DNA of 64,000 nt from a virus, in the IMG/VR virus record IMGVR_UViG_3300042503_000724, positions 1 through 64,000 of that record; one strand, given 5' to 3'. The number at the start of each line of letters is the position of its first letter. Position 1 is the stretch's first letter. Positions 10,654-63,991 of the stretch are shown here, piece by piece. A program made the translations under genes and the position numbers. Below the pieces are notes generated by a model, which saw only the letters and a program-made list of their open reading frames with translations, searched no databases and had not been told where the DNA came from.

Positions 10654-11342
10654 TAACTGTATTCCTTTCTTACCCAAGATCTTTTTTTATAGTATGCTTT
10701 TTCACCAGTAATTTTTATATTTTGTTTCGCAACTAGGTCGTAGTTTTCAGGACTATTTATGGACTTCCAGTGTTTTCTTTTTATTGGAATAATTTGTGCA
10801 TATGGAGTTCCTTCTGGAATAACTCCATAAAAACCTTCTTTTAAAAAGAATGGAACGTTTCCATTAACTGAAATTTTATCAGAGTCCATAAAGCCAGACA
10901 TTGTTGTAAATGGTAAATCAAACCTATTATAAGGATGTGTAACAATTGTACTATACCCTCTCGGTGTTTTCCATCCCCATCTATTTGTCCAAACAAAATG
11001 ACTATCTAGATGACCTGCAGGTCTTGGAATTGTTTTTCCAGATTCATATGGTCTTTGGTTTATAAAATCTTGCCATGGACCTGGAGAGTTCCATTCAATG
11101 CTTAAAGACCCATCTTCTTTTTTACCAACAAATATATCAAAGGGTGTTACAAGAAGATATCCAGCAGTTAAAACGTCTAAGAAAGGAATGCATGTTTTTA
11201 AGCCAGCACTTGCCTCACTTCCATGTGTAGTAACATAAAATGTTTCTCCATCTTTGTACCATTGTGGAATCATTTTTTTTGCAGGTACTGGTATGTTTAA
11301 TGGATAGGTTTTATCCGAACATGTAAATTTTATTAATTTCAT
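10653..11342 (-). CDS. DUF6065-like phage protein, copy B
   Basis: A 229-aa paralogue of the protein at 9558-10217: NIPVPAKKMIPQWYKDG, TCIPFLDVLTAGYLLVTP, WKTPRGYSTIVTHPYNR, GFMDSDKISVNGNVPFFLK and GTPYAQIIPIKRKHWK align block by block. The two copies flank a 144-aa gene, which suggests duplication followed by divergence. An adenine-rich leader precedes the ATG. Function unknown. Confidence 0.75.
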   Translation of the reverse strand: MKLIKFTCSDKTYPLNIPVPAKKMIPQWYKDGETFYVTTHGSEASAGLKTCIPFLDVLTAGYLLVTPFDIFVGKKEDGSLSIEWNSPGPWQDFINQRPYESGKTIPRPAGHLDSHFVWTNRWGWKTPRGYSTIVTHPYNRFDLPFTTMSGFMDSDKISVNGNVPFFLKEGFYGVIPEGTPYAQIIPIKRKHWKSINSPENYDLVAKQNIKITGEKAYYKKRSWVRKEYS

Positions 11343-12970: not shown

Positions 12971-13648
12971 TTATACCGTCAAATCTCCAATTAAAGCCCA
13001 GGTATTAGTAGCTCTTTTAACTAAACTTGCAGCAGACCATTGTGCTCTTAGTTTGGCTCCAGGAGTAGCGTTTACAGTCACACCTGCTGCTCCAGAGATA
13101 GTTGTCTGACCAGCACCTGTTTGAAGCACTGAAATCTGAGTGCCTATTGGAAAGGCGTGGGACGAATTTAAGGGGATTTCAAGAGTGTTGCCTACTCCAG
13201 TAGTAGTATTCATCTCAATCATCTTACCGTCATCTGCCAAAACTAACGTATATTTGTAGGAATTGCCAGAATTTAAAGTTGGAGTATTTGTATCAATATG
13301 TGAGACAACATTTCCAGCAGAATATACTGTTCCAGTAAAAGATGGAGCATTTAAAAGTGCATAGTTGCTTAGTGTAATTGTTGCCCATGAAGCAGTAGTT
13401 CCATCAGTTGTTAGATATTTTCCTGAATTTGAAGACTGTGATGGTAAAGCATCTAGGGTAGCCCACTCAATTGTAGTTCCAGCAGAATTAACTTTAAGTA
13501 CTTGGTTTGGTTGTCCAAGCAATCCGTCAACAAGAGTTTCACCAAAAACATTAACGTCATCTAGTACAGTTACATCATTATTAGCCAGTAAAGAATCTAC
13601 TGTTAATGGCTCAGTAGAGTAAAGGTGGTTTAGTTTATTAAGTCCCAC
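12971..13648 (-). CDS. tail-fibre-associated structural protein
   Basis: A 225-aa protein with fibre-like segments: NQVLKVNSAGTTIEWATLDA, SGKYLTTDGTTASWATITLS and PSFTGTVYSAGNV. Its C-terminal domain (GAAGVTVNATPGAKLRAQWS, then LVKRATNTWALIGDL) is common at the end of phage fibre proteins. The SGKYLTTDG...SWA block matches SGYYLTNNGLTVEWK in the gene at 45885-46259, which occupies the same relative position in the second copy of the structural cassette. Confidence 0.78.
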   Translation of the reverse strand: MGLNKLNHLYSTEPLTVDSLLANNDVTVLDDVNVFGETLVDGLLGQPNQVLKVNSAGTTIEWATLDALPSQSSNSGKYLTTDGTTASWATITLSNYALLNAPSFTGTVYSAGNVVSHIDTNTPTLNSGNSYKYTLVLADDGKMIEMNTTTGVGNTLEIPLNSSHAFPIGTQISVLQTGAGQTTISGAAGVTVNATPGAKLRAQWSAASLVKRATNTWALIGDLTV

Positions 13649-13660
13649 GTTTTCCTCCTA

Positions 13661-16597
13661 CTATGCTTGGGCTTCGGTCCAAGAAAGCCTTCCGTTAACT
13701 GTAGCAGTTGTTACACCAGAACCAGAAAGGTTTCTAATTGCTATTGTTACAATGTCTGGTCCATCTGGGAAAACGTTAAGTTCTGTAGTAGATGCGGTAT
13801 TTGTTGTACCACCACCAAGAATTGAGTTTCCTAAATCTCTAACCAAACCAAGATCTTGCTGAACAACACTTGCTTCACCAGACTGAGTAGATACAAAGAA
13901 GGAGAAGATTGGTTCTCCACCAACTAGGGTTGTATTTACTGCGTGATAACAAACTTGAGACAAACTTGATCCACCAACATTTTCCCAAGTGTTTCCAGTT
14001 GCAGTATTAAATCTTGGATTCAAAATAAGTTCTACTAGGAATGCTCCTGGGTTTCCAGCAGTTCCTGCAACTAAGCTTAAAACGTCCATTTGTCTTAGTC
14101 GTAGCTGCATTCTGTTAATAAGCTCTCTTTCTCCAAAAACTCCAACAACTCCGTTGTCTACAGATGGAGCAAGTCTTAGGCTAAGAAGAGCAGATCTTGT
14201 TGATGAGCTTCTTGGAACAACAACACCAGACTTCATACCTGCTTGGAATACGAATGACTTATCATCATCGTATCCACCATCCATAATTACAGATGATCCC
14301 CAGTGACTTGTTCCAGTAGCATACTGTCTAGAGTATAGATCTACTCTTACAGGTGCTGTTGCAGAATATGTAAACGATTGTGCCGTTCCATTTCCACCAC
14401 CAGTGGCACCAGAAACTGGGTTAATGACTACGTTGCTTAGGGCTCTTGTTAGACCTGTAAAGGTTGTAGCAGTTTTTCCTGTGTAAGAAACATACTCAAT
14501 TTCTTGTGCAGTATTTCCAGCCTTTGTAATTGCAAGAGTTCCAGCTGATGGGAATCCTACAGTACTTGCAACTGACATACTAGTAGCAACATTTGAAAGC
14601 GTTGCTGAAAGTTTTGTAACTGGTGCATCTGCTGCTGCCTCATAGCGAGAAGGAAGGTTTCCAGAACGCATATAGGCTTCTGTCTTAACATTTGCGTGTG
14701 TCATTCTATGGCAATAAACAACCTCTCCACGCTCATCCTTAAATCCAAATCTAATTGCACCTGCACCATACCAAGCATAGTCAAGGTAGAACATCTGCAT
14801 CTTAGCTAAATCAACTGTCACACCTGATGGACCAGTTCCATCTAACTTATCAATGTTCCAATCAGACTGTGCAACCTTGGTGTCAACAATCTTGCTTACG
14901 ATTCCACCAGAGGCAATGGTCTGACCACGGTATTCTGGGAACACATAAAGCTCAGTATTACTTGTAATAGACTGAACTTGATAGGTTGCACCTCTAATAG
15001 AGATTCTATCTCCTGGGTTTAACTGTTCAGAGAATCTGGTATCAGTTCCTGTAATAGTTGGAGACCCTTGTGTTGCTGCAACTATACCAGAAATTTGATC
15101 TGTACTAGAACGTCTTACTGCATATAAAGTTTGTCCATCAAATTCAAAGAAGAATCCGTTTTGTTCATCAAACATACCGATTCTAGTCTGACCACCGAAC
15201 CACGATACTGGTGCGACTGTAATTGGGAATCCAGTTGCTGGAGTTGCAGATGGAACTGAGGATGCTGTGTACTGGAATTCTTTAGGTCCAGTAATTGCTG
15301 TAACTGTAAAGGTTCCATTGTATGCTGTTTGATCTGCACCACTTACTGTAACCTGTGCACCAATTCCAAGGAAATGTTCGTATCTAGTTTTTACCGTAAC
15401 GGTTGTGCTAGATGAAGAAATTAAATCAACTGCGAATACTGGCTTCATCATAGATCCAGTTGAGAACTGAATGCCCTTACCTGACTGGTATCTAAAATAT
15501 CTTCTTGTCTGTCTTATAATTTTTGATCCAGGAGCAGAAGAACCAGTTGTAAACTTCACTCCACCATCAAATGGTCTGTGTACAGATAGTGTTCCTGGTC
15601 TACCAGTTAAGGACTTCGCAACAGCAGTGATTGCACCAGATGGGGCATCAATTACATCGAAAGTGAACGTATTTGTTGTTGGAGTTGTCTTTACTTCCCA
15701 AGCACCATTTGGTGGGTTAGAAGAAGCTGCTGTGGTACCAGAAACATAAATCAAATCTCCGATGCTAAGACCATGAGCATTTGTAGTTGTTGCTGTTACT
15801 GTTGTGCTAGAAGCTGTAAATGCAGCACCAGATGAGGTGCTAAGTGGGATCTCTGATCCTGTGTAATTGTAAGCCTTGTATGCAAATGTCTTTGTTGCAT
15901 CACGAACGCTTCCGTTAGTAACATTTGCTCTTGCATAGTAGGTAAAAGTATCATTAGAAACTGTTGTTGTGGAAACGCTTCTTACTAGATACCAACCGTC
16001 TGCATTAACATCCAAGGTATCCTGAATGAAGAACTTATCTCCAACAGAAAGACCGTGGGCTGCAGTAGTTACTACTGTTACAAGTCTAGAAGATCCAGTT
16101 CCTGTAATTGAAACAAAAGTGTTTGTTCCTCCAGAAGGCTGTGCAATTGGTGTTTGAATATCATAAAAGGCTGAAGGCTTGTTGTTTGTAAGACTTAATA
16201 CTTCCCATTTAGTAGGCTGAGTTCCGTATTCAAAATCGGTATCAATTAAAGAAGTAGGTTCGGAAACTCTAAACTTTCCAACAGGATCCATGTATGCTTC
16301 ATCTGGTTGGAAGCTTTCAGCATACTCATCAACTGTGATTTGAAGTTTATCTGTAGCAGACATTGCTGCTGTGTTGTAATTAAGAACAACAGTTGTTGTG
16401 GCTACGTTGTTTGAGTCAATGGCTGGGGTATAGCTTGTTGCTTTAAGACTAGGGTCAGAGAAGTTGTAGATGACTTGGTTAGTAGTTACGTTTGTAATTA
16501 AAACCAGTCTCTCCCTTGGAATGTGATCTGGGATTACAATCGTTCGTGTTGACGGAGTGAATGTATAATTCGTCTCGTGAAGTACTTTTCTAGCCAT
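13661..16597 (-). CDS. large virion structural protein, paralogue 1
   Basis: A 978-aa protein starting MARKVLHETNYTFTPSTRTI, with LITNVTTNQVIYNFSDPSLK near residue 35. It contains repeated beta-domain phrases (TVTTAAHGLSVGDKFFI, TTTNAHGLSIGDLIYVSG, TVSGADQTAYNGTFTV), then DGTGPSGVTVDLAKMQMFYL, HWGSSVIMDGGYDDDKSF, RLAPSVDNGV and a C-terminal RLSWTEAQA. The same blocks in the same order occur in the 1212-aa protein at 46269-49907. These look like baseplate or fibre-network proteins. It is followed immediately by the 1333-aa fibre gene upstream, again as in the other locus. Confidence 0.85.
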   Translation of the reverse strand: MARKVLHETNYTFTPSTRTIVIPDHIPRERLVLITNVTTNQVIYNFSDPSLKATSYTPAIDSNNVATTTVVLNYNTAAMSATDKLQITVDEYAESFQPDEAYMDPVGKFRVSEPTSLIDTDFEYGTQPTKWEVLSLTNNKPSAFYDIQTPIAQPSGGTNTFVSITGTGSSRLVTVVTTAAHGLSVGDKFFIQDTLDVNADGWYLVRSVSTTTVSNDTFTYYARANVTNGSVRDATKTFAYKAYNYTGSEIPLSTSSGAAFTASSTTVTATTTNAHGLSIGDLIYVSGTTAASSNPPNGAWEVKTTPTTNTFTFDVIDAPSGAITAVAKSLTGRPGTLSVHRPFDGGVKFTTGSSAPGSKIIRQTRRYFRYQSGKGIQFSTGSMMKPVFAVDLISSSSTTVTVKTRYEHFLGIGAQVTVSGADQTAYNGTFTVTAITGPKEFQYTASSVPSATPATGFPITVAPVSWFGGQTRIGMFDEQNGFFFEFDGQTLYAVRRSSTDQISGIVAATQGSPTITGTDTRFSEQLNPGDRISIRGATYQVQSITSNTELYVFPEYRGQTIASGGIVSKIVDTKVAQSDWNIDKLDGTGPSGVTVDLAKMQMFYLDYAWYGAGAIRFGFKDERGEVVYCHRMTHANVKTEAYMRSGNLPSRYEAAADAPVTKLSATLSNVATSMSVASTVGFPSAGTLAITKAGNTAQEIEYVSYTGKTATTFTGLTRALSNVVINPVSGATGGGNGTAQSFTYSATAPVRVDLYSRQYATGTSHWGSSVIMDGGYDDDKSFVFQAGMKSGVVVPRSSSTRSALLSLRLAPSVDNGVVGVFGERELINRMQLRLRQMDVLSLVAGTAGNPGAFLVELILNPRFNTATGNTWENVGGSSLSQVCYHAVNTTLVGGEPIFSFFVSTQSGEASVVQQDLGLVRDLGNSILGGGTTNTASTTELNVFPDGPDIVTIAIRNLSGSGVTTATVNGRLSWTEAQA

Positions 16598-16600
16598 TGT

Positions 16601-19600
16601 TTATGCTCCTAATAATATATCCACTGCTTTGAATGGATACCCTTTCTTTATTGAATTTACGTTTGGTCCAAGCATTAACCTGGCATCAAATGTTGATCCT
16701 ACTGGTGGTACTTCAGAAAATGCGATGTAGCCATCTGAGTCTACCATAAAGCCTTCTCTTGGTAGCATAGATTGCCAGACATATTCTGGAAAGTCCACTG
16801 TTTGAATTATACCATTTATTGTTAACAAAAGTCTAAGTGGGTTGTTAATTGCTACTTGTTGTCCTTGGAATTTTGGAACAAATCTAGAATCCATATCGTT
16901 AAACTCATACCTCAAGTCATCCAGTGGAATAATGTCTGGAAGGTATGGCAAACTGGCAAAAATTAAATCGTCCACATATTCTTTATTTGCTGCATCTGTA
17001 TCATCTGTAGGAGATGGCACTGTAACATGACCAGTAAATACTGGATCGTTTGTTCTGGCTATTTCAACATCAATAAAGTCTTTATCAATTGGGGTTGCTG
17101 CCCAGGTTCCTGTTGTAACGTATCCAAGAGTACTAATATTATTTGGCACACCAGAGTACTGTGCAAAAATTATATTATCTGTTCCAATTTTTATTGCACC
17201 ACTTGGAGTCGTAGAAGTTCCACCCTGAGAAACAACATAAGAATCATTTGCAGAGTTGGTACCTGAAGTAACAAAAACGTAATCTCCATTTTTAATTAGT
17301 CCATTTGTTGAAGTATTTCCATTAAAATTTGTAGCCCTTGTAAGAATAAACGGATCGTCACCGTCACCAGCAAATGTTACAACATAAATACCATTATGCT
17401 TTGCGTCAGTCTGATCTTTAATAAGAACTCTTTGACCAGCCTCTACCTCTGGTCCATCAAGTATCAATGCTCCATCTACATTTCCAGTAAGGGTTGCTCC
17501 AACTCCAAGACCGCCAGAAGAATCGCTAGTTCCAGCTGCATATGTTGCATTTAGATTTGTTTGGGAAACATAGACCACCTGAGGTTTAACATTAATTCCA
17601 GCAGCCAATGCGTCAACATAGCTTTTAGTTGTAGCATGACCAGAACTTGTTGGAGTTGGCACAGTAACAGTTCCAACAAAATTTGTAGAAGGATAAACAG
17701 AAACTGTTCCAGTTGCTCCACTTGTTGAAGAACCAATGTTAATATTTGTTTCTGAACCTGATGCCCCACCAGTTCCAATGTTGATTGTTTTTGTAGTTGT
17801 AGTAGCATTTCCAAATAAAGTTGCAGTAACTGATCCTGTTGGAGTGCCTCCAATTGTAAATGTTGTTGCTGCACCTGCAAGGTTAACAGTAGTTGCGGTT
17901 GTATTAAATAAGTCTAAAGATGTGCTTGTTGTGACTATTGCAGGAGTTCTAATTGTAGTGCTTGCACCAGCATCAGTAGATCCCATAATTAATGTTGTTG
18001 CTGCCCCAGCAAAATTAACTGTTGTTGCAGTAGCATTTATTAAATTAAAGGTACTTGTTCCAGATATTAAGGATGTGCTAATTGTTGGGGAAGAACCAGT
18101 TATATAAGAATTTGTGTCAATAGACCAGCTGTCTGGTCCAAGTCTTTTTAATAGACCAACTCCAGAAGTTATTGCTGCAATTGCACTAAGATCTCCGTCA
18201 ACTGGTTGATATCCAGACAAAGAAGATGATAGTGCATATGTACTTGAGTCATAGGACCATGTTCCTGCTGTATTTTTTAGAAGACCAGTGCCAGAACCAA
18301 GAGTATTAATTCCTGCAAGATGTGAACTGTAAGCTTGAACGTCTGTTCCAATTACAAGACCTAAAGATGTTCTTCCAGAGGATGCATCAAGACCTGAAGA
18401 TCCACCGTCCCATTTATTTCTATCAGTATATGCGGTGTCCCAATTAGAAGAATTATTAGTTACTGTAGTGTATGTTGAATCTGTTCCACGAACAACAATT
18501 CCAGTTGTTGACAATGCAGAAATATTTGTAAGGTCTAAATCTTTTGGTTGGTAGTCTGATATGGCATCAGCCTTGGTTAAATATGTAGCTTCTGCTGTTG
18601 CTGTTGAGAGCAAGTTACCAAGTTGTGTTTGTATAGAAGATGTTACTCCATCTAGGTATCCTATTTCTGTAGATGTAACATTTCCAATACTTGTTGTTGA
18701 TGGAAGAATTACTATGCCAGTAAATGTTGGACCAGATAATGTAGCATATGCTGTTAGGTCTAACTGTGTGCTTGGAACTTTTCCTGATGGATCATCAAGT
18801 GTCGCTACGCCACCTGCAATACCTTTTGCACTCATAGGAATGTAGCCAGTTGAAGTGTTGCTTATGTCAGAAACTCTTGCAATTGTATCTGGTATAACTG
18901 CATCTGAAATTTCTCCGCCAGTAAGTGTTGGCTTTGAGTCTAGCTGAGTTTGTATAGCAGAGGTTACGCCATTTAAATATCCAACTTCTGTAGCACTTAC
19001 GTCACCAATTGATGTTGTGGATGGCAAGACAACTATCCCAGTAAATGTTGGTGCATCTAAAGGTGCAAAACTTGTTGCAACAAACTCTGTTGTTGCAATT
19101 CTAGTACTATTGTTTCCAGCTGTAGCAGTTGTTGCTAAGGGTAAGCCAGTAAACTCTGGACTTTCTAGTGGTGCATAGCTAGAAAGACTTGAATTTAAAG
19201 CGTAAGAATTTGTGTCTATGCTAAATGCATCTTCACCAGTTCTTTTTACAAATCCAGTACCAATAATTTCTGTAATTGAAGTAAGTCCTGGATTATATTC
19301 TTGTACATCTAGACCAATGCTACCAGAAGTAAGAAGATCTGCTTCTGCTGCAGTTTGATTTTTCCATTGAGAGGTTGCACTATCATATGCAAGAACTTCA
19401 TTGTCTGCTATAGTTCCACTAATTGTTACATCTGTAAGACTGCTTATATCTGTGACTGCAGAAACCGTTTCATTTATCCACTTTGAAGTTGTGGTATCCC
19501 AAACAAGTGCTTGTCCATCTGTTGGGGTTCCAGTAATTACAACATTTGAAAGACTGTCAACTGTATGGTTGTGTGATGTAGAAGACTTGCTATCAATTTG

Positions 19601-20602
19601 TGTTTGAATGGCGGAAGTTACACCGTCAAGATATCCTATTTCAGTGTCAGTAACTCCAGATACAACTGTTTGAAGCCCTGCTTCTGCTGCTGTTTGATTT
19701 TTCCAAAGACCACTTGCACTATCATAGGAGAGGATTTCATTATCTGCTATTGACGCATTAGCTTCAAGAAGTACATCATGAATTTCTTTTAACTCAAAAC
19801 CATTTTGTACCTTAACAAAAATCTCACCAGTGTTTGCATTTTTTCTAGTAACAACACCAATAAAAACTAAATGTGCAGGAGCAACAGGCTTGTTTGTAAG
19901 ACCATAAATTAAATTACCATCTGTACCAAGCCATACTGGATCACCCTCTGCACCTGCGGTAGATGTGTCAAGACCTGCTAGAAGACCTTCTGTTACAACT
20001 TTAACCAATGCATTGTTTGCTCCGCCAGATTCTAAAAGACCAATAGTCTTACTAGATGTTGCTTCGGATGCGTTAGAAGCTTTTGAAACAACCATGTTTG
20101 TTCCATTAGAAGAACTTACATATACTGCTTGACCTTTTGCAATAGCACCATTTAATCTAACATCATGTTTTAAAACTGCGGTATAGTCTGCAGATGGAGC
20201 ATTTATTACATCAATATGTAATTCATTAGATGCGTCTTCATATGTTACAGAAGCATTGGTGTGGTTTGCGTGGGTAAATAGTGGGGCTACAAAGTCTTGT
20301 ACCTGCTCTTGTGAAAGGCTTACAACACCGTTTACTTCTACCCAATAAGTACCATCATAAATATAGAACTCACCAGTATCATTCTTATACCAGGCATCTC
20401 CAGTTGCTGGACTTGATGGGGCAGTGGTTGAAACATTAATGTCTGATCCGCCATCATTACCAACGGGAACCCAAGCACCATTGGCATATACTTTTACTGC
20501 ATCAGATGTGGTATTGTAATAAATGTCACCTTCAACTGGTGAGGATGGGTCTGAAGCTAAATTGACCAAATTAATAGGGTTTAAAAACTTTTTACTAGCC
20601 AT
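16601..20602 (-). CDS. 1333-aa tail fibre with GYLDGVTS repeats
   Basis: A long fibre protein. Near the N-terminus are trimeric-fibre-like blocks (PVEGDIYYNTTSDAVKVYA, ATGDAWYKNDTGEFYIYDG). The shaft carries repeats of (E)IGYLDGVTSxIQTQ separated by variable loops, and TTATTVNLAGAATTFTIGG-type collagen-free beta repeats. The C-terminal domain (about residues 1225-1333: LTINGIIQTVDFPEYVWQS, GFMVDSDGYIAFSEVPPVGS, YPFKAVDILLGA) is shared with the 1300-aa protein at 49919. It is preceded by an extended -10 motif 9 nt before the ATG. Likely host recognition. Confidence 0.88.
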   Translation of the reverse strand: MASKKFLNPINLVNLASDPSSPVEGDIYYNTTSDAVKVYANGAWVPVGNDGGSDINVSTTAPSSPATGDAWYKNDTGEFYIYDGTYWVEVNGVVSLSQEQVQDFVAPLFTHANHTNASVTYEDASNELHIDVINAPSADYTAVLKHDVRLNGAIAKGQAVYVSSSNGTNMVVSKASNASEATSSKTIGLLESGGANNALVKVVTEGLLAGLDTSTAGAEGDPVWLGTDGNLIYGLTNKPVAPAHLVFIGVVTRKNANTGEIFVKVQNGFELKEIHDVLLEANASIADNEILSYDSASGLWKNQTAAEAGLQTVVSGVTDTEIGYLDGVTSAIQTQIDSKSSTSHNHTVDSLSNVVITGTPTDGQALVWDTTTSKWINETVSAVTDISSLTDVTISGTIADNEVLAYDSATSQWKNQTAAEADLLTSGSIGLDVQEYNPGLTSITEIIGTGFVKRTGEDAFSIDTNSYALNSSLSSYAPLESPEFTGLPLATTATAGNNSTRIATTEFVATSFAPLDAPTFTGIVVLPSTTSIGDVSATEVGYLNGVTSAIQTQLDSKPTLTGGEISDAVIPDTIARVSDISNTSTGYIPMSAKGIAGGVATLDDPSGKVPSTQLDLTAYATLSGPTFTGIVILPSTTSIGNVTSTEIGYLDGVTSSIQTQLGNLLSTATAEATYLTKADAISDYQPKDLDLTNISALSTTGIVVRGTDSTYTTVTNNSSNWDTAYTDRNKWDGGSSGLDASSGRTSLGLVIGTDVQAYSSHLAGINTLGSGTGLLKNTAGTWSYDSSTYALSSSLSGYQPVDGDLSAIAAITSGVGLLKRLGPDSWSIDTNSYITGSSPTISTSLISGTSTFNLINATATTVNFAGAATTLIMGSTDAGASTTIRTPAIVTTSTSLDLFNTTATTVNLAGAATTFTIGGTPTGSVTATLFGNATTTTKTINIGTGGASGSETNINIGSSTSGATGTVSVYPSTNFVGTVTVPTPTSSGHATTKSYVDALAAGINVKPQVVYVSQTNLNATYAAGTSDSSGGLGVGATLTGNVDGALILDGPEVEAGQRVLIKDQTDAKHNGIYVVTFAGDGDDPFILTRATNFNGNTSTNGLIKNGDYVFVTSGTNSANDSYVVSQGGTSTTPSGAIKIGTDNIIFAQYSGVPNNISTLGYVTTGTWAATPIDKDFIDVEIARTNDPVFTGHVTVPSPTDDTDAANKEYVDDLIFASLPYLPDIIPLDDLRYEFNDMDSRFVPKFQGQQVAINNPLRLLLTINGIIQTVDFPEYVWQSMLPREGFMVDSDGYIAFSEVPPVGSTFDARLMLGPNVNSIKKGYPFKAVDILLGA

Positions 20603-49200: not shown

Positions 49201-49907
49201 GCAGCACTAAATCTAATTGGTTGGTTTGCTGAAAGTCCGTGAGCATTTGCGGTAAACACACCAGCAGAAACACCTGTAATTGACGGTGCAGCTGGCTTTG
49301 TTACAATAAACGTTCCTTCGGCTGCATCATTTGTTGTTTCTTGAATACTAACAACGCTGTTTGAAACAAGACCATGATCTGATTCAGTCAATACATATAC
49401 TCTTGACTTTCTTGCAGTTGTAGTTCCGTCTCCAACAATATCTGCTACAGCTAAAGAGTTTCCGCCAGTACCCTTTGAAAAGAAAGATGGGTAATTGGCT
49501 ACCAAGGAAACAGTTTCCCATTTAGAAGGTTGGGTTCCGTATTCAAAATCTGTGTCAATTAAAGACTGTGGGTTTGCAACACGCATCTTACCAACAGCAT
49601 CAACTAGCAAGTCTGACGGTGTAATTTTTTCATCGTACTCTTCATAAACAATTTGAAGCTTGTCTTTAGAGTCCATTTCATTACAGTTGTAATTTAATAC
49701 AATTGTTGTTGTTGAAGAAGATGCTGATCCTGCAACGGTGTAAGATGTGGCATTTAAGTCTGGGTCTGAAAAATTATAAATTACCTGATTTGTTGTTACG
49801 TTTGTAATCAACATTAGGCTTTCTCTTTGAATTACTCTTGGGAGAATAATTTTATCCTCAGAAGGTATGAAAGTATAATACGTTTCCTGCATTACCTTTT
49901 TAGCCAT
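46269..49907 (-). CDS. large virion structural protein, paralogue 2
   Basis: A 1212-aa paralogue of the 978-aa protein at 13661. It shares the N-terminus (LITNVTTNQVIYNFSDPDL; VLNYN), the middle block (DGTGPSGYIIDPTKMQMLYI), HWGSSVIMDGTFDEDKAF, RIAPSVDNGI and the C-terminus AKLSWTESQA. About 230 extra residues are accounted for by added AHGL-type repeats and an insertion between residues about 740 and 960. It is likely part of a baseplate or fibre scaffold. Confidence 0.85.
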   Translation of the reverse strand: MAKKVMQETYYTFIPSEDKIILPRVIQRESLMLITNVTTNQVIYNFSDPDLNATSYTVAGSASSSTTTIVLNYNCNEMDSKDKLQIVYEEYDEKITPSDLLVDAVGKMRVANPQSLIDTDFEYGTQPSKWETVSLVANYPSFFSKGTGGNSLAVADIVGDGTTTARKSRVYVLTESDHGLVSNSVVSIQETTNDAAEGTFIVTKPAAPSITGVSAGVFTANAHGLSANQPIRFSAASTSGVSTSTVYYVKTVLANSFMVATSIAGSAITTFTNGTPTVDVNKMFTYLANGRVGNDSIKDSNLTSIYGGDLFDGANVPGSSSFTVEVAGSVATVTTPNPHGLIPGTPILINGATTNTFLNGSWVVSATPTPKIFNFTVTGDTVTNISPAATVSGSKLYCKPDAYVQHTAYNGGVLLATGNNVVNVQQVRQSRRTFRYQSGKAIQFSTGTKLTPSYDITEIYSNTTVGDATIVVKTVQDHGLQENARVTISGVQVVGTDANPYNGSFLVTGIVDENTFSFETTIPTAISTTNRNPSGDNALVTVTNWAGSSTRLGLFNDQNGMYFEYDGQKLFACRRFSNKPIFGTVSVTKDSSIVTGTSTLFLKQIEKNQNIVIKGMTYRVVNIDSDTTMHISPAYRGQTVGGNVKVYKVQEVRIPQNEFNIDRLDGTGPSGYIIDPTKMQMLYIDYSWYGSGFIRYGLRATNGDIVYCHRIPNNNLNSQSYMRSGNLPARYEVSNFGPTTVLVSSPGTPLAQTSNPTAADVPGTPLNSSQTVMYVKDIEGWRTTAPSGNSTDIIGYLLISDKTNTEIVSYTAVGSYNAKVGGYPITIQRRVTQFITSQGSVGVGSFRNGTYSSGAYTDRMKLFAGASTNFNTAGIQQGNVIFAADGTKLGRVATSLELGGAANPAADGQSLTISSVFNGKTWEVPDSPNKDSNGTNVPYGYTSTNTIATVGYSISSTIALQGTANTVSFSPDSSIQNGTGTDGQVSVQVITQTCAPSLSHWGSSVIMDGTFDEDKAFQLNARMRGAGLSVAAGASNALLSIRIAPSVDNGIARNFGKRDVINTMQLILREIQTSANGRFLIEGFLNPSTISDSGWSSANGSSTLTYPDSWEYTSVGSGSLAQVLYHGTAATITGGDNIFSFYTENSGSGYGISTYNLGSTRELGTSILSGNGSISTPGFPNGPDVLTIVATNLETSGSKFINAKLSWTESQA

Positions 49908-49918
49908 TTATTTCCACC

Positions 49919-52900
49919 TTATCCTAATGCTACATCCGCTGCTTTGAACGGATATATCCTTGCTGTTTTATTTTTTACTGGTCCTGGAAAAACTCTTACA
50001 TTAATAGTTGATCCAAGTGGAGGGGATTCAGAAAACTTTATTCTTCCTTCTGTGTCCAGTGTAAATCCTCTGTAGGATAAAAGACCAGACTGCCAGACAT
50101 ATTCTTTGTTTTGAATAAATCCTGACTGAATTACTCCATTTAATGAAACTACTAGGTTTAATGGGTTTTTAACAGTTACGTCTTTGTAGTTATACTTGGG
50201 CGTAAATGTGTTTCTTCTACCATTAAAAGAACTAGAAAAATCATCTAGCTCAATTATATCAGAATAAAATCCAATTACCTCTCCTGTAACTTCTAAATCT
50301 TTAACTTTTAGCTTATTTCCGTATGGATCAATAGTAATTGGAGCTACGTCTGGCTTTGAGGCTCCAATCCAAAGGGAATAGTTTTTGTCAAAGCTTATAA
50401 TTTTTCCACTAGGGAAAGAATATGCAACTACTCCAGGATCTATAGATGTTGGTAGCTTGTCTGGGAACACTGCCTGATAAGTAAATTGATTAGATGCTGG
50501 AACATCTATAATTTCAAATTCTCCAACAAAATCGTCTGATAGGTACGAGGTTTCTCTGAACCCTGTAACAGTTACTGTTTTTCCAACCACAAAGTTATGA
50601 TTTGTACTGGTAGTAATTGTTACTTTATTATCTGTTGCAGACAAACTTGATACAACGTAAGAGGTGTAGGTTCTAGAAAAAGCTGCTGCTGTTGGACTTG
50701 GTTCTGGAGTCTTAGGAGCATAGTTTAAATATCCATCTCCATACAACACAATTCCTGTTGCATCTTCTTTATCTTCTACAATATTTCTATCATTATCAAC
50801 AAATCCAATAATTGGAAAGTACCCATCGTTCAATGGTTCAAAAAGTTTGTTATATTCTGTGCTTGTTGAATCTACTGGAATATTTGATAGGTAGAGGTTT
50901 TCTCCAGTTACCATGTTTAGCAAAGAAAGTTTGGTTGAGTTTGTAGGATAAATATAAACGTTATAAAAATATTCTCCAGGATTTGCTGTATCTTCAGAAT
51001 AAGTTGTTTCAATTTTAGATATTTCAATAGCCGTACTATTTTCTTCTCCAACAAAAGTTGTAAGGTATGAAGAATTTTTAACATATGTTTTTGGCAAGTA
51101 GGTTGGAGTAACATATGTAACAGACCCACCATTAATAAATCCACCAATTTCATCAACGGTTCCGTCACCATTAGAGTCTGAGTTTTCTCCAAGTATTGGA
51201 CCTGGAACAGAATCTGTAAGTAGTTCATAGGTGTTTTCTGTTGTTCTTGGTAAAACTCTAGCTCCAAATGTAGCAAAGCCAGAAGTTTCTGAATCCTCAA
51301 TAGAAAATATTGGTAGGCTTAATACAAGGGAAGCACCTGAAGCAGAGTATGTAACTGCTGGAGCAAAAGTGTTATCTGAATAATCTGTTAACACATTTTG
51401 TTTTTGTGCAGTAATGGTTACGCTTGTAGTTGTTACTGTTTTAACATAGTAGGTTGTATTTGACAATATTCCAGTCAAAAAGGATCCAGAGTCTGCAAGG
51501 AATATTTCGTCAAATCTAATTTCGTCCCCAACTTGATATTTTGTATCTGCTAAATCTATTGGGATTGCTGTAAGATTTGTTCCAGCTAAACTAATTTTTT
51601 CTGGATTTTCAATGTCTGTGTAGAACTGAGTCCTAATTATTGTTTCAAATTTATAAGCATAAAAATTTTGATCTTTAATAAAAATAGTAATATTTGGATT
51701 TTCATATAAGGATAATTCTGTATCACTTATAACACTATCAACGTTTCCAACAAAATATCTTCTTGTGCCTTCAACAACATATATTGAATATCCTCGTCTA
51801 AGTTCTTGGGTAAACTTGGTTCCACTACCAGTTACAATCTTGGTTCTTTGATTTGCTGTAATTTTACCAGTTACTGTTGGAAGACTACTTACTAGTTTTC
51901 CAACTCTAATTGGTGCACTTTGAGTAATATTTTCAATTGGGTTTGAATGAAATCCAGATTGCAGATAAGCCGTAGCATTTGATGTTCCAGAAAAAAGACC
52001 TCCAGAGCCAGCAACCCAACCAAAATCATTTCCACCAATTTGTGCAGAGTTTGCAAATACATCAGAACCACGGATTCTAGATCCGATAATTTCTGTAGAA
52101 GATATTGTTGCATTAGACATTAAAGGTGCTGTAAGAGTTAGCTTATTGTCATACCATCTTAGATAGTGTGTTGCGTCTCCAATTTTAAATCCATTTGTTG
52201 TGGAGTACCAATAATTATTTGCATCTAGTCTTATACCAACACCACCAAGACCATATCCGTTTGCTGTGCTAGGAGAAGATAACGGGTCATGGTATCCGAC
52301 ACCCATTGCATTTGTAACTAGAGGAACTGGAGTAAGTGCACTAGACTCAATGTATCCTCTTAGGATACCGTTAATTTTAAGAACTGAACCTGTAGGGTTC
52401 CAGCTAAGACCAGAACCAAGAGAAAACTTTCCAGTTCCTTCTGCATAAAATGGAGCAGACTCAAACCCACCAGTTCCAATTTGAATGTTTGTTAGTGCAT
52501 CTGTAGTTCCACCAGTTAGCTTAATCTTATTTGTTCCAGTACCAATATTTACTGTATTTGTAAATGTTCCACCAGTAGCATTAATAATTGCATTTACATT
52601 TAAATCAGTTCCGTCCCAGTAAATATATTTATCTGCAGATCCAACTCTAAACTTTCCTTCATCGTTTTTATTCCAGTATTGAAACTCATCAACAATTATA
52701 GACTCTGCTTCTAGGGATCCACTAATGCTTACGTCTCCGTTTTTAAATACTTTGAATACGTTTCCAAATTGAACAACAGCATCTTCTGGATTTACAACAT
52801 AGTCTGGGTTCTTTAAGAAGTATTTATCTCCCCATGGATTGCTACTACTATCAGTTCCTCCAGCTTTAATAACGCCCTCTGCAATTATCCAACCGTCTTC

Positions 52901-54935: not shown

Positions 54936-54936
54936 T

Positions 54937-56706: not shown

Positions 56707-59700
56707 TTACAACATCTCTCTTAACTCAACCGACATAGAAATATCGTCTGGTGTAGCGGTGTAGTTTATTCTAGATAAAATATATGTTTTATCTCCATCT
56801 TGTTCCACGCAATATCCTCTAGACTTATAAAATACCTTTACTTTATCTCCAAGTTGAAGTAGTGGGTTTGGAAAAATCTCAGCCGTAATAACAACTTTTT
56901 CTTTTGATGCTTTTTTGGCTACCCAATTTGCTAGCTTTTTAGCCATGTTAATTCCAGATATATATGTTCCAGAAATATTGTAAGACTGCTCACCATAGAG
57001 TTTCCTATTAATTTCTAGCTCTTGATTTTTTCTTTCTTCAATATCTAATGAATTAATATAGTCATCAATTCTTACTTCTCCTCCACCTAACTTGTCTAAA
57101 AGAATTCCACTTATATATACTGGTACAGAACTTCCAGAGTCAATTCTTACCGTTGCACCTGCAGTACAATAAATCCAAAACTCTCCTCCAAATGAAGTAT
57201 ACTTAAAGTCTTTAACCAAATAATCTGGAATAATTCTACCAAGTTCTATTAATTGAGCAGAAAATGTTGGATACTGAAATCTTGCTTCAATTTTTCTTGC
57301 TTCTCTAACCAAGCAGCCAAAGTCATCATAGAATAAAGGATAGTTTCCTCCACCGTATGCATCGCTTACAGAAGATGTAATTACTCCACGATCAATTGCT
57401 TGATCGAAAGAATACGGAACTGGGGCAGAAAGGATTGGGTGATTTATTCCAATGTCTACACCTTCTACTGTTGCGATTGCATAAAAGTATTCAAAAATTG
57501 CTGCGGAGTCATCTCTAACAAACATAGATACATCTTGTCTTGGAGGAATATACCCTGCTTCTCCAACTTTAGCATCGTCAATTGCAGTAAACACTAATAT
57601 GTCTTCAAAATAAACGTCAAAGGCTCTGTAAGATGTTGACTCGTATGTAACTATATCTAAACTAAATGTTGTTCTCCATCCATCAGAGTCTGACAAGGCA
57701 GTATAAGCTGGAAGAACTCCTTCTTCTCCAAATTTTGCAGCATTAACTCTAGCAAATCCAACGCCAAGCAATGTTGGTGTTCTATCACTACCTGTAACTT
57801 TATAAAATTTAATATTGTTACTTTCTGGCTTATCTGCTTCAAATGCATCTCCAGAAGTAGAAACTTCAAGGAAGTATCCGTTTGTTCCACTTGTGGTTGA
57901 AGAATTGTAAAGACCTATTCCAGCAAAAGTTGAATTAGAAGATGACTCAAGTATTCTCATTTTTGCACCAACTCTTGTTGGATTAAATCCTGCTGACTGT
58001 TTAAATCCTGTTAAAAATTGTTGACCTGCATCTCTAATAATAATTTGATCACTTGGTGGTAAATTTAGCGTTGAAGAAGATGTAGCATTAGACGGTGGTC
58101 CAATTAACTTTGCATAGCCAGCATTACTAGAAATATACTGATTCACTGAAGAGTCTCCAGTTGAAACTTTTTGTTGAGTAAGTAAATTTAAAGTTGCAGA
58201 AATTGTTGTTGGCTGGCTTGAAGAATACAGCTTTGTTGCAAATGCATTCCACGAAACGGCATTACCAACAGATGCAACATGTTCAGAAACTCTTGTATCA
58301 TTAAATCCTCTACCAGTTCTTGAAACTGTATATTTATATTTTTCATTAGTAAGTCCTGGGTCTGAAACCACAGACATTTCTAAGTCAACAATAAGTCCAA
58401 CTGGAATAAAGTCTGCTCCTGATGGTGCCTTTAAAATATCTGTTAATTTTTCTTCTTCTGAAAAATAAATAATCAGGTCTGTTGAATACCCTCTTCTTGA
58501 AACCTTGTATAAAACTCCATTAAATTTAACCGTTTCGTCATCAATCACAACGTAGCCGTTATACTTTCTGTGGAAAGAAGATGTTAAAGTATCTTCTGCC
58601 ATAAAAATTGTCAAGTCTTTCTTTTGATTTTCAGTAAGACTGGCATAGGCTTCTCTTATTGCTTGAAGTTCTGTGTCTGCCTCATATTGAATTTTTGTAC
58701 CACTACTACTAAAATAACTTAATCCATTCGAGCCACCCAAGTTTCTTTGTAGTGATCCAACACCCAAATATGAATCTAAGTCTGTATTGGCTGGCTGCCA
58801 AACAATATGAGGAACAAAGGATAAATTTCTATTTAAATTTACTTCACTAAATCCAGTCAATTTAGTAACATTGGTAATATCTGTTTCGTCTCCTCTTTGC
58901 AGTGCTTCTTTTACTAAATTAAGTGGCTTTTTTTCTATACCAAGATGATCATAAGCTACTTCACCTGAAGTAATTGGTGGAATTATTGAATCTTCAAAAC
59001 TTTCAATATTACTTATGTATTTGTTGTTTAAATAGGCATATTCTGCGTCTCCAGAAGATAACTCTCCAATGTCTCCGACAAGCCAATAGTCATGTAGGTT
59101 TGTTTTATTTGCTACAGCCTCTTTTGTCATTGCAATTAAATTATTAAAACTATCAAAAAATATTGATAGTTGTGTAGACTTAGCAATTTCATTTAACACT
59201 TCTGCAACTGATTGTTCTTTTCTGCATCTAAAAAAGTCAAGGGATATGTCTTCATAATCATACTCTTCCCCTTCTTTACTTTTATAGAATCCAAACTTAT
59301 TATATCCAGCATTATCTAAAACAATTTTAATAATTGCAGATACTTTAATTCCATCTCTTGATGCTAAAAGCATGTCTGGGGCTGGCTTATCTTTTAAGAA
59401 ACGCATTGAATCTTCTAGTGAAACAGAAACTTTCCAGTTTGACTCTTCGTCCCAAGACTCTACATACAGTACTTTAACTGGAACATATTTAGTTGTAGGT
59501 CCAGAAGTTATAGCATTTAATATTGTAAATTTTACGTTTGGCTTTAATATGTCATCTAATATAGAGTTCATGTTTTTATTGCTAATTAAATTATCTTCAT
59601 TAAATAGCTCTATTGATCCAGTTGAAGAAACAATAGATCCAACTGGTAGTCCAAGAGAAGCATCTCCAATAGTAGTATCAACAGAAAATGATTCTGTATA

Positions 59701-60924
59701 TCCAGTAAAATCAACTACTAGTCTTGGGGAAATTTCAATAATATCTAAAGTTGCACCTTCTTTTGACATTGTTTGTGCAGAAAATCTAACTGCAGTAATT
59801 AGCTCAACGTCTAGACCAGTTATTCCATCATTTGGAATATTAAAAGATGTTAGTGCATTTTCTTCTTCAACTGCACCTGCTAAAGACCATGACATTGATC
59901 CACTGACTTTTTTACCAGTTATTCTAACTATGCCATCAGATAGCGATGGTGTGTCTACAAACTTAATACTTGCAGCAGCAAGGTTTCCAGTGAGGTTTTT
60001 ATCTAGCACAACAAGACCATCTTGTTTTACTTCTGCTACATAAGTTTCTGTTGGAACATTTGTTGTTGACCCAACCTGTACAACTCTCATTCCAACATAG
60101 ATTCCTGAACTGTCTGTTAGTGTTATGTTTTTTGAACCACTTGTTCCAGTAACTGTTTTAGTTTTAGCCACCGCAAGACGAGTGTCATCATCTTCTGAAT
60201 AGATTGTTGACCAAGTTGTTGATCCAGATTTTAAAACCTGAATAGTAAAATTTTTAGCATATCCATTTACAGTTTGAGTTTTAATAGTAATCTTGTTTGT
60301 TTTTAAGGGTCCTTTCTCAACTACATCATAAACAATAAATGCATTATTTCCTTTCATTTTAAAATCTGATCCAGATTTTCCAATAAGTTCATGAGTAATA
60401 GCTGGTGTATTTTCATTAGCAACTGCAGAGTTTGGCTTACAGTATCTAAAAGAATTCCAATACTTAAATCCTTGACTATCTGAAAGAGGGTATAGCCTTA
60501 CTGGAGATTGTAAAACATTATAAGATTTTACTGTTTTTGAATCTTCAATAATTATTGAAGATGTTTGAGATCCAATTCCATAAATAATTCCAGGATCAGG
60601 TCTGTCTGCTTCAACTACATTATATAGACTACAAAGCTTTTTAACAGTCTTTTCTTCTCTTGATATAGATGAGTCATCTACTCTTACTACAGTATAAAAC
60701 CCTCCGTTATCCCATCCACCTACATCTGTTGTAACAAATGTTTTTGAGTATGTTGGGTCGTTAGATCCACTTGACTTAGCATCAATATATACTGGATATG
60801 ATCCAACATAGTTAATTTTATAATATGAGTTATGGTTCCATTCTGCTAAAATTTTATGTTTTGAAGATATTGTAGATTCGTTTTTATAAATTGAATCGAT
60901 TGCTGTTAGTCCTGTAGTTAGCAT
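56707..60924 (-). CDS. very large tail protein (baseplate hub/Tal-like candidate)
   Basis: A 1405-aa protein that begins MLTTGLTAIDSIYKNESTIS. It contains strand-rich domains (SFSVDTTIGDASLGLPVGSI; KVSVSLEDSMRFLKDKPAPD; SISRTGRGFNDTRV-like region), and ends MSVELREML. Its placement directly after the tape measure and a 183-aa gene is the usual position of the large Tal or minor-tail hub protein in actinophages. Domain-level assignment is inference. Confidence 0.75.
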   Translation of the reverse strand: MLTTGLTAIDSIYKNESTISSKHKILAEWNHNSYYKINYVGSYPVYIDAKSSGSNDPTYSKTFVTTDVGGWDNGGFYTVVRVDDSSISREEKTVKKLCSLYNVVEADRPDPGIIYGIGSQTSSIIIEDSKTVKSYNVLQSPVRLYPLSDSQGFKYWNSFRYCKPNSAVANENTPAITHELIGKSGSDFKMKGNNAFIVYDVVEKGPLKTNKITIKTQTVNGYAKNFTIQVLKSGSTTWSTIYSEDDDTRLAVAKTKTVTGTSGSKNITLTDSSGIYVGMRVVQVGSTTNVPTETYVAEVKQDGLVVLDKNLTGNLAAASIKFVDTPSLSDGIVRITGKKVSGSMSWSLAGAVEEENALTSFNIPNDGITGLDVELITAVRFSAQTMSKEGATLDIIEISPRLVVDFTGYTESFSVDTTIGDASLGLPVGSIVSSTGSIELFNEDNLISNKNMNSILDDILKPNVKFTILNAITSGPTTKYVPVKVLYVESWDEESNWKVSVSLEDSMRFLKDKPAPDMLLASRDGIKVSAIIKIVLDNAGYNKFGFYKSKEGEEYDYEDISLDFFRCRKEQSVAEVLNEIAKSTQLSIFFDSFNNLIAMTKEAVANKTNLHDYWLVGDIGELSSGDAEYAYLNNKYISNIESFEDSIIPPITSGEVAYDHLGIEKKPLNLVKEALQRGDETDITNVTKLTGFSEVNLNRNLSFVPHIVWQPANTDLDSYLGVGSLQRNLGGSNGLSYFSSSGTKIQYEADTELQAIREAYASLTENQKKDLTIFMAEDTLTSSFHRKYNGYVVIDDETVKFNGVLYKVSRRGYSTDLIIYFSEEEKLTDILKAPSGADFIPVGLIVDLEMSVVSDPGLTNEKYKYTVSRTGRGFNDTRVSEHVASVGNAVSWNAFATKLYSSSQPTTISATLNLLTQQKVSTGDSSVNQYISSNAGYAKLIGPPSNATSSSTLNLPPSDQIIIRDAGQQFLTGFKQSAGFNPTRVGAKMRILESSSNSTFAGIGLYNSSTTSGTNGYFLEVSTSGDAFEADKPESNNIKFYKVTGSDRTPTLLGVGFARVNAAKFGEEGVLPAYTALSDSDGWRTTFSLDIVTYESTSYRAFDVYFEDILVFTAIDDAKVGEAGYIPPRQDVSMFVRDDSAAIFEYFYAIATVEGVDIGINHPILSAPVPYSFDQAIDRGVITSSVSDAYGGGNYPLFYDDFGCLVREARKIEARFQYPTFSAQLIELGRIIPDYLVKDFKYTSFGGEFWIYCTAGATVRIDSGSSVPVYISGILLDKLGGGEVRIDDYINSLDIEERKNQELEINRKLYGEQSYNISGTYISGINMAKKLANWVAKKASKEKVVITAEIFPNPLLQLGDKVKVFYKSRGYCVEQDGDKTYILSRINYTATPDDISMSVELREML

Positions 60925-61475
60925 TAGACTTCCACCAAGCTAATAGACACATCCCATAAATCATTATGTTGCCCTCTTTTTACAATAGAAAAATCAAAAT
61001 CGTCAAAGAAAACATTGTACTTTTCAACATTAGTTACTGAGTTTCCTGTCACTGATGCGTCATATACTAATAGCATCCAAAAATCTGAAAAGTTTGCTTC
61101 GTACCAAGCTTTAATGTCTTGACCAGCACCAAAACCATCTGAAGTAATTTTATTTGAAAGACCATCTGAAACTGCTGGAGTTGGTCTTGTTTTTCTAGAA
61201 GGAAGAGATTCCCAAGAAGTACTAAAGGTCATCTTGTCTGCAATATGAACAGAACGCATTGTTCCATCAATCATTCTTCTCTTAGACTCAAGTCTTTGTG
61301 GTACTACTGATAAAGAAGACCTATTGTCGTCAGTTAAATATAGCACTTGTCCAGAACCAAAGTCCCATAATCCGTTTGGAACACCACTAGTTAATTGTGC
61401 AACTGGGTTAGATGTAGAAAATATAATCAATGATGGCTTTGAGTATGCTCTACTTAATAGTGCTGGATCTGCCAT
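60924..61475 (-). CDS. 183-aa tail protein (Dit-like candidate)
   Basis: Starts MADPALLSRAYSKPSLIIFS and continues GVPNGLWDFGSGQVLYLTDD and VEKYNVFFDDFDFSIVKRGQ. Size and position between the tape measure and the large hub protein match the distal tail protein slot of siphophages. The sequence itself does not give a decisive signature. Confidence 0.65.
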   Translation of the reverse strand: MADPALLSRAYSKPSLIIFSTSNPVAQLTSGVPNGLWDFGSGQVLYLTDDNRSSLSVVPQRLESKRRMIDGTMRSVHIADKMTFSTSWESLPSRKTRPTPAVSDGLSNKITSDGFGAGQDIKAWYEANFSDFWMLLVYDASVTGNSVTNVEKYNVFFDDFDFSIVKRGQHNDLWDVSISLVEV

Positions 61476-63985
61476 TAGCTACTCCTCCCAAAACTTCTTC
61501 TATCTTCTTCTCTGCTAATAGCAGTAACAATTTTTTGTGCAATCTTATTTGGATCCATTGAAGGACCAGATGCATCAACGCTAATGTTGTAGGTGTTACT
61601 GCTAGATACCATTGTACCACTATCTATTGGAGAAATGCCAGATATTGATGGCATACCAAACTTTAACTCTGCAATTCCATCTTTTAATTGTTGAGTAAGC
61701 GGTTTTGTTAATACAATTTCTCCCTTGTGAAGATTAGCAAGACCATCTGACATTGTTTCTCCACCAATTCTCATTCCTGGAGGATTTTCTCCATTCTTAA
61801 GGGCAGACCATTCAAAGTGCAAGTGTGGACCAGTTGAGTTTCCTGAGTTTCCAGAGTATCCAATTAGATCTCCAGCACTTACGGATCCATCTTTTCCAAA
61901 TTCATTTAGGTGAGCGTATAAAGACTCTGTTCCGTCCGAATGTTTAATTGTTACAAATCTTCCAAAAGAAGAATTTCCTCTATTTCTTTGACTTGCAGTT
62001 CCTGAAGCCATTGCATACACTGGAGTTCCTGTTGGAGTTTTATAGTCAATAGCTGTTGCGTATCTTGCACTATGCTGTTTTCCACTTGGATATAAACCTC
62101 TTGCACTAATTGGAAAAGCTTGTCTAAGAATTTTTGCAACTGCTCCAAGTTTTTCTGGAATAGATGATGGAAGACCAGATCCTCCACCGTCATTATTTTC
62201 TGGCTCCTCATTAATGCTTTCTGAAGCTTTTTGAACAAGTGCATTTGCTATTGTTGTTGCACCAATTCTTTGCCCCATAGATCCAGTTATTGCTCCAGCT
62301 GAAGCAATTGCAACTCCTCCAACACGATCCCCATTATTAATTTTATCTAAAGTTCCCTTGCCAATTCTTTTTACAGAATCTGCCTTAACCACATATTCTC
62401 CATTTGAAAGACGTGCTGGAATAGAGTCCGAAGTTGAAGTTCCTGGACCAGAAACATAGCCACCATCTGCATAGGTTCCAGTTCCATCTTTTGCTGCTGG
62501 ATTATTTTTTCCTGCTTTAGGCAAACTATTTTCAATTAACTCTTTTAAGCTTGTAGGATCTAAATCAAATTCTTTAGCTGCTGCATCTATTTGTTGATTA
62601 AATACTCCAGAAAATCCACTAGTAAATCCTTCTGCAAGCCCCTTCATAATTGCTTGAGACTCTGCTGGCATGTTTGAAGCAACAGTAGTTATAGCTGTAG
62701 CATATTCAGAAAGGTCTTTTCCAAGTTTTTCTCCAACTGGTGTATTTATAAAATCTTCTAGAGCAGATTTTGCTGAGTTAAACTTATTTAGCTCGTCAGC
62801 CTTGTTTTTTTGAATTTGAATAGATTCTTTATTTAATGCCTCCATTCTATTGTCGTGACGCTCAGATTCCTTATCCATTAGCTCCTGGTTAGCATCTAAT
62901 TGATCTTGTAGTGTTTGAGTTTCAGCATCTGCTTTTTCTTTAATACTATCAATAGTTTTTTCAATATCAGTAACTCTTGCGTCAGTAAGGTCTTCAATTT
63001 TTTTAATTTCACTTTGTTGAGCATTTTCTTGTGCAGAACTTGCCATTTCATCTCTTGCTTGAAGGAAACCAATAACATCTCCACTAGCCAATGCATTAAG
63101 ACCTCCAAGTGCAGTTTGTCCCTGACTAGCTAAGAAAGAAGATTCTTCTTTTTGTGATTCAAGAGCCTTTAAGTATTTTTCTGAGCTTTCTTCAATAGCA
63201 TCTATTTCTTTTTCTTTTGATTTTATTTGCTCGTCTGCAGCTCTTTGAATTCCTTTAATTTCTTTTTGAATAGCCTTATTTCTTTTTTCCATATTTTTTT
63301 GGAAATTTTTAGTTCTTTCATTTTCTGATTCTTGTGCAGATTCATTATTTGCAATCAATTGATCGTAGTAGGCTGTTCTTGTCTGGATTTCAGCATCGAT
63401 CACACTTATTGCTTCTTGGACGTTAGAATTAATTTCAATATCGATTCTTTTTTGTGTTTCTACTGCAGCAATTTGTTGTTGTAGACCAAATGCTTCATCT
63501 TTTGAGTTCTTTAAATCTGCAATCAACTGAGTTAAATCAATGTTCATAGCTTCTGCTTGTAAAAGCAGCATTTGATTTTTTATTCCTTCTGCTTCAGAGT
63601 CAGCTGACACCAATGCATCTTTTAATGTTAAAACAAATTTTGAATCGTCTGCATATCCAAGCTCTTTAGCTTTATCTAAATTAGCTTGCTGCAAGGCTTG
63701 TGTTGTTTTTCCTATATTAGTTCCTGTTTCTTCTGCATTTGCATAAACCTGGTCTACTGTTGTTGAAAGCATATTAAAACCTTTAATTACATCTGGAGAT
63801 GTAAGTGCTGCATTTAATGCCCCAGTTATTTGACCAGTTAAGTTTTTAAAATCTTCTTCTCCAGATAGTTTTGTCATTTCTGGCTGTGGTGCCACAGGTA
63901 TTGGTATTGGTTGTTCCCCAAGAGGAAGGGTATTAGCGTCATTAAGCAGTGCGTTCTGAACTGCGGTTTTGCTTGAAACTTGCAT
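61475..63985 (-). CDS. tape-measure-like protein with degenerate M23 domain
   Basis: The start MQVSSKTAVQNALLNDANTL is chosen because GATAAT lies 6 nt before the ATG and a TTG two codons earlier is weak. The 836-aa protein has long coiled-coil stretches (QKNMEKRNKAIQKEIKGIQR; KEKADAETQTLQDQLDANQE), a Gly-rich transition and a C-terminal M23 peptidase-like domain. That domain keeps the D of AIDYKTP, YAHLNEF and GPHLHFEW, but the first zinc His is replaced (ATAIDY where HxxxD is expected), so activity is doubtful. Tail peptidases of this kind help penetrate the cell wall. Confidence 0.85.
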   Translation of the reverse strand: MQVSSKTAVQNALLNDANTLPLGEQPIPIPVAPQPEMTKLSGEEDFKNLTGQITGALNAALTSPDVIKGFNMLSTTVDQVYANAEETGTNIGKTTQALQQANLDKAKELGYADDSKFVLTLKDALVSADSEAEGIKNQMLLLQAEAMNIDLTQLIADLKNSKDEAFGLQQQIAAVETQKRIDIEINSNVQEAISVIDAEIQTRTAYYDQLIANNESAQESENERTKNFQKNMEKRNKAIQKEIKGIQRAADEQIKSKEKEIDAIEESSEKYLKALESQKEESSFLASQGQTALGGLNALASGDVIGFLQARDEMASSAQENAQQSEIKKIEDLTDARVTDIEKTIDSIKEKADAETQTLQDQLDANQELMDKESERHDNRMEALNKESIQIQKNKADELNKFNSAKSALEDFINTPVGEKLGKDLSEYATAITTVASNMPAESQAIMKGLAEGFTSGFSGVFNQQIDAAAKEFDLDPTSLKELIENSLPKAGKNNPAAKDGTGTYADGGYVSGPGTSTSDSIPARLSNGEYVVKADSVKRIGKGTLDKINNGDRVGGVAIASAGAITGSMGQRIGATTIANALVQKASESINEEPENNDGGGSGLPSSIPEKLGAVAKILRQAFPISARGLYPSGKQHSARYATAIDYKTPTGTPVYAMASGTASQRNRGNSSFGRFVTIKHSDGTESLYAHLNEFGKDGSVSAGDLIGYSGNSGNSTGPHLHFEWSALKNGENPPGMRIGGETMSDGLANLHKGEIVLTKPLTQQLKDGIAELKFGMPSISGISPIDSGTMVSSSNTYNISVDASGPSMDPNKIAQKIVTAISREEDRRSFGRSS

Positions 63986-63991
63986 AAACAA

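Follow-up and report, generated by a model that had tools for sequence, protein, structure and literature searches.

Two homologous fibre and tip modules in the genome of a probable actinophage, the second probably gained by exchange

Genome setting and gene content of the two loci

The DNA analysed here (the window) is a stretch of 64,000 nt that covers nearly all of an IMG/VR virus record of 64,542 bp. Tape measure and minor tail genes make up a tail module, and a DNA polymerase gene belongs to a replication module; a terminase and the actinobacterial marker WhiB (PF02467 at 3807-4157, E 2e-12) are encoded as well. WhiB is a marker for freshwater actinophages (PMC10202952), and from the module content together with this gene it seems probable that the genome is that of a phage of actinobacteria, the host probably being a freshwater organism. 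A near-identity search of a phage collection returned no match to the genome, and a scan of genome contigs found only three distant loci, in bins assigned to a beta proteobacterium and Euryarchaeota, which gave no clue to the host. Two homologous fibre and tip loci were found, as the original prediction had proposed. An independent 93-kb record from another metagenome (G001), the replication genes of which are 97-100% identical to those here, carries both in this order on a single contig, and the pair is therefore no assembly artefact.

Locus B (11.6-22.4 kb) lies beyond the replication and terminase genes, and all of its genes are on the minus strand. It is preceded by a tail fibre gene, P0007 (20658..22373; phrog_4492, E 2e-70), and begins with P0003 (16601..20602), a proximal fibre of 1333 aa with a repetitive shaft that ends in a docking-type domain we call A2 (16607..17014; HMM 197 bits; last residues YPFKAVDILLGA). 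The next gene, P0002 (13661..16597), encodes the putative tip, a 978-aa phrog_5838 protein. Its first 95 residues (NTD; 16313..16597) form a conserved segment that all A2-associated tips have, and residues 110-775 (14273..16270) are predicted to form a discontinuous ConA-like lectin/glucanase sandwich with inserted domains. One of these (residues 351-466, 15200..15547) resembles the phi92/K1F endosialidase stalk barrel (4hiz, Z 10.6, 24% identity), and another (residues 658-756, 14330..14626) a GP4 portal-tail chain (8jov_1, Z 10.6, 23% identity). The third gene, P0001 (12971..13648; 225 aa), has a conserved N-terminus that in relatives reads GLNKLNHxYxTEPLTVxSLL, and P0008 (11630..12967), a Cys/Asn/Gly-rich protein of 445 aa for which no family match was found, closes the locus; close relatives have P0008 in this position too, and it changes fast. 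Programmed readthrough of the in-frame stop between P0003 and P0002 was considered and set aside: although this genome and many relatives have the two in the same reading frame, many other relatives have them out of frame.

Locus A (43.8-54 kb), also on the minus strand, directly follows the tape measure gene (61475..63991, the C-terminal part with an M23 domain; phrog_10030, E 8e-38) and the minor tail genes, and it is assigned to the tail module because a minor tail protein lies upstream (56707..60924; phrog_10359, E 2e-50). Its fibre, P0006 (49919..53821), is 1300 aa long when read from a GTG, the earlier figure of 1272 aa being counted from an internal ATG, and it too ends in A2 (49922..50341; HMM 179 bits; last residues YPFKAADVALG). 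The locus A tip, P0005 (46269..49907), is a phrog_5838 protein of 1212 aa with an NTD at 49623..49907 and an extra insertion at about residues 742-985. It is followed by P0004 (45885..46259; 124 aa), the third gene of the locus, and by P0009 (43831..45903; 690 aa), an fn3-containing virion protein (PF00041, E 5e-8).

Other features of the window were observed in passing. The tail gene at 53730-54959 is hypervariable, with 46% identity to its G001 counterpart vs 78% and 90% for its two neighbours. A free-standing M23 peptidase (23851-24240) and the tape measure M23 domain share 41% identity, and a subtilisin-like protease (PF00082, 4685-5587) has a hydrophobic N-terminal segment and is 92% identical in G001. 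Tandem phrog_7084 paralogues (9558-10217 and 10653-11342; 34% identity, E 4e-37), with one ORF between them, are both kept in the relatives G001 and G018.

Likeness between the loci and the predicted fold of the tips

The original prediction paired three consecutive genes of one locus with three of the other, and it was accurate as to the position and length of all six open reading frames and as to their similar order and tight spacing (gaps of 3 and 12 nt in locus B, 11 and 9 nt in locus A). The second pair, P0002 and P0005, is homologous end to end (BLASTP E 3e-160; 41% identity over 748 columns and 41% over a further 245), and both match the phrog_5838 profile (P0002 at E 2e-279, 930 bits in two stretches; P0005 at E 4e-235 over 1-1106 of 1106). 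Region by region, the NTDs are 62% identical and the other regions 24-56%, the pattern to be expected if the docking part stays constant and the recognizing part changes. In the first pair, P0003 and P0006, the proposed common C-terminal domain was confirmed as A2, the last ~130 aa (43% identity, E 2e-27), and the shafts do not align; the two A2 domains fall in the same supported 19-row clade. No third copy of A2 or of the tip-family domain was found in the 64-kb window. Homology of the third pair, P0001 and P0004, had been proposed from the motif SGxYLTxxG and did not rise above background, the E value of 0.008 coming from a single two-sequence comparison. The motif also turns up in numerous fibre ORFs of other phages that are not equivalent to this pair, and the match of the P0004 N-terminus to a P0001-type N-terminal profile was equalled by 80 of 3000 shuffles and by 194 of 2747 real N-termini; the correspondence of the third pair is therefore positional only.

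The AlphaFold model of P0002, built from 50 sequences, has a pLDDT of 87 and a pTM of 0.81. In VIA-align comparisons it matched the beta-1,3-glucanase 7eo3 over 227 residues at Z 16.1, and further matches at about Z 11-13 were to GH43 enzymes, a legume lectin-like domain, and sialidases. The model has the beta-sandwich of the ConA-like lectin/glucanase fold, an assignment of fold only, and this prediction suggests glycan recognition. A similar ConA-like sandwich is found in the C-terminal receptor-binding domain of mycobacteriophage TM4 gp23 (PDB 9n6a; Z 12.1 over 185 residues), but identity to P0002 is about 7%, and P0002 differs further in its inserted domains and separate NTD. On the strength of the model, the P0002 and P0005 tips probably bind a host surface glycan, and it is plausible that the two, both predicted to be lectin-like, serve two receptors. 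More than one receptor-binding system per virion is likewise described for Shigella phage Sf14, which has two long tail fibres (PMC11821841), and for the Ackermannviridae, with multiple exchangeable receptor-binding proteins and modular acquisition (PMC11414711). Unlike the systems in those accounts, the tips and docking domains here are homologous and of separate origin, and they belong to an uncultured, probable actinophage.

The tip family is represented by more than 590 loci in IMG/VR. Its hundreds of members in aquatic phages are annotated only as "virion structural protein", phrog_5838 being placed by PHROGs under head and packaging. Cyanophage members (Synechococcus phage S-PM2 p175, S-RSM4, and the "fiber protein" of ACG-2014h) are about 42-46% identical to P0002 over the full length. 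In S-PM2 there is a single copy, and the protein upstream of it gave no A2 match, whereas the window has two copies from different clades, each following an A2 fibre. The structural prediction would recast this family as lectin-like receptor-binding tips with a candidate docking partner, which would allow host recognition to be tested directly in uncultured actinophages and cyanophages.

Origin of the second set

In a 111-row tree of the tip family, P0005 falls with its counterpart in a related contig (L159 in G046) in a starred 30-row clade and P0002 in a different starred clade, and a careful 42-row tree placed both proteins in the same way. Approximately unbiased (AU) tests rejected P0002 and P0005 as sisters (lnL difference 630, p 2e-35) and also rejected joining the small clades to which they belong (lnL difference 404, p 2e-44). 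A duplication that predated the whole family would give the same tree, but this is not a duplication within the lineage. Large tip-family members occur at least twice in five of the 70 records searched (G000, G001, G007, G037, G038).

Both sites are present in three sister records (G021, G022, G025), in which most replication genes are about 67-95% identical to those here. Site B of these records carries orthologues of P0003, P0002 (81-83%), and P0001. At site A each has a single fibre of 1237-1593 aa (that of G021 incomplete at the end of the piece), the N-terminal part of which matches P0006 aa 45-447 (27%, E 2e-24), and the two complete ones bear a Collar domain (PF07484) near the end. The C-terminal domain of P0006, P0005, P0004, and P0009 are all absent from site A of these sisters. 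The G046 contig, which ends before site B, has the locus A set at site A, with identities of 39% for the C-terminal part of P0006, 50% for P0005, 42% for P0004, and 33% for P0009; P0009 is co-present with the locus A set only.

The separate clades and the alternative fibre at site A in the sisters thus point to a second set gained by module exchange and not by copying, most simply by a swap that took in the distal portion of the fibre at the tail locus along with its adjoining genes. We consider it fairly likely that the genome holds two receptor-binding modules of the same type and that the one at locus A was acquired separately by exchange and is no duplicate of the one at locus B. In each module a long fibre (P0003 or P0006) ends in A2, a predicted docking-type jelly roll, and the next gene encodes the putative tip (P0002 or P0005), a large protein of several domains with a predicted ConA-like sandwich that probably binds glycans and an NTD probably seated on A2. 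The locus B module is the one common to the sister lineages. The locus A module, from the other tip-family clade, occupies the site of the sisters' single tail-collar fibre, and would have entered when the distal fibre part and the adjoining tip genes were exchanged. The case would then show how a second homologous tip gained by module exchange is easily mistaken for a duplication.

A refinement that is compatible with this exchange, and that we hold to be possible if somewhat on the doubtful side, is that P0005 is a chimera in which an A2-compatible NTD is joined to a receptor-binding body of the collagen-fibre clade, the A2+NTD junction having been either conserved or exchanged. The P0005 NTD has a mean identity of 54% to A2-associated NTDs and 43% to its own body clade, while its body shows the reverse (39% to A2-associated tips vs 48% to its own clade), and P0002 ranks 4th among the matches of P0005 for the NTD and 41st-84th elsewhere. 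These identities are suggestive of NTD transfer from A2-type phages into P0005, but a tree of the NTD, which has 95 columns only, does not reject P0005 with its body clade (AU 0.55), so that the AU test gives transfer no support and we did not adopt it. In addition, some A2-less NTDs are equally similar (58%), and the identities could equally arise if the NTD evolved faster in the collagen-type clade.

We judge it unlikely that both tips belong to one branched complex, or that one is a decoration of the head or tail and does not bind a receptor. XD docking domains are the basis of branched complexes of the CBA120 kind (PMC8825819), and the PHROGs category of phrog_5838 would agree with a decorating role, but locus A lies in the tail-tip operon, its site holds a collar-bearing fibre in the sisters, and relatives of the tips adjoin fibres and are annotated as fibre or structural proteins. 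Finally, an ancient duplication of the three-gene cassette in the ancestors of this phage, with later diversification, was the original prediction's own explanation and would fit the matching gene order and spacing, the similar NTDs, and the grouping of the two A2 domains, but it was rejected as highly improbable on the tree, the AU test, and the synteny of the sister phages, since the tips are not nearest relatives, the sisters are without the second set at its site, the third pair is at background, and only the second pair is homologous over its full length, the first being so C-terminally.

The A2 domain and its candidate partner

In relatives A2 occurs either at the C-terminus of a fibre or as a separate ORF of ~135 aa, and in every case in which A2 and a tip gene were detected together, A2 immediately precedes the tip gene. 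Structure prediction of this domain, recommended at the outset, gave a putative jelly-roll, docking-like fold, with a pLDDT mostly of 81-91 over residues 1-90 that is weak at 51-60. The best eight structural matches were all phage tail, fibre, or tailspike chains (Z 5.8-7.4), including cyanophage A4 (7.4), LME-1 (6.7), CBA120 TSP4 (6.7), HRP29 (6.2), a T7-type tail (6.1), and P-SCSP1u (6.1); unrelated chains scored Z 4.8 or less, and all the A2 values lie below Z 8, the level taken as safe. The putative jelly roll of A2 resembles the XD domains of CBA120 TSP4 and T4 gp10 and the N-terminal domain of T7 gp17 (Z 6-7.4). It differs from them in sitting at a fibre C-terminus, or in a free protein upstream of the tip, and in having no match to the Pfam families of that kind: 15 members gave none at E values up to 5, a result that holds at that sensitivity. 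XD domains of T4 gp10 bind partner trimers, and those of CBA120 TSP4 mediate the binding of other tailspikes (PMC8825819).

Tips of the family occur with or without the NTD of ~95 residues, and in the 175 loci where sufficient sequence precedes the tip gene, A2 comes immediately before 85 of the 148 NTD-bearing tips and before none of the 27 that have no NTD. Corrected for the tree, this association reduces to only seven independent pairs, two to four of them concordant and none discordant, and is no longer significant (p at least 0.125). Distances between A2 domains and between NTDs are correlated once the rest of the protein is accounted for (partial r 0.30, equalled in 0 of 5000 permutations), vs 0.02 for a neighbouring control region, a signal that could instead come from close DNA linkage. 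An AlphaFold model of A2 and NTD in tandem, with the stop read as Q, folded both domains (pLDDT 73, pTM 0.40) and showed no confident interface between them; the tandem spans TSP4 residues 186-335.

The tip is probably seated on A2 through its first 95 residues, and the A2+NTD combination is possibly the gene-split equivalent of the XD2-XD3 pair of TSP4 and gp10. A broader proposal, that A2+NTD is a portable docking junction across a gene boundary, used twice here, by which lectin-type tips of this very large, hardly characterized family are swapped between fibres, tail loci, and phage families, is a speculative one that we regard as rather unlikely at present. The 63 NTD-bearing tips with no recognizable A2 upstream indicate that A2 is not the sole partner, and since these tips follow collagen-type, LamG-like (by reading of the sequence), or other fibres, the NTD probably takes several partners.

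Two observations concern the ends of the upstream proteins. The mean hydrophobic fraction of their last seven residues is 0.58-0.59 for NTD partners, 0.39 for non-NTD proteins, and 0.46 for the background, and hydrophobic C-terminal tails such as ...DILLGA, ...ATIALGD, and ...SVALG are a candidate common feature. In the A2-less part of the P0005 clade (L162, L164, L174, L191, L204, and others) the tip gene is preceded by one for a short collagen-type fibre with a conserved hydrophobic tail at its end (...AASSFLF, ...PPITLI, ...IALALL), which, judged from these residues, is possibly an alternative docking tail.
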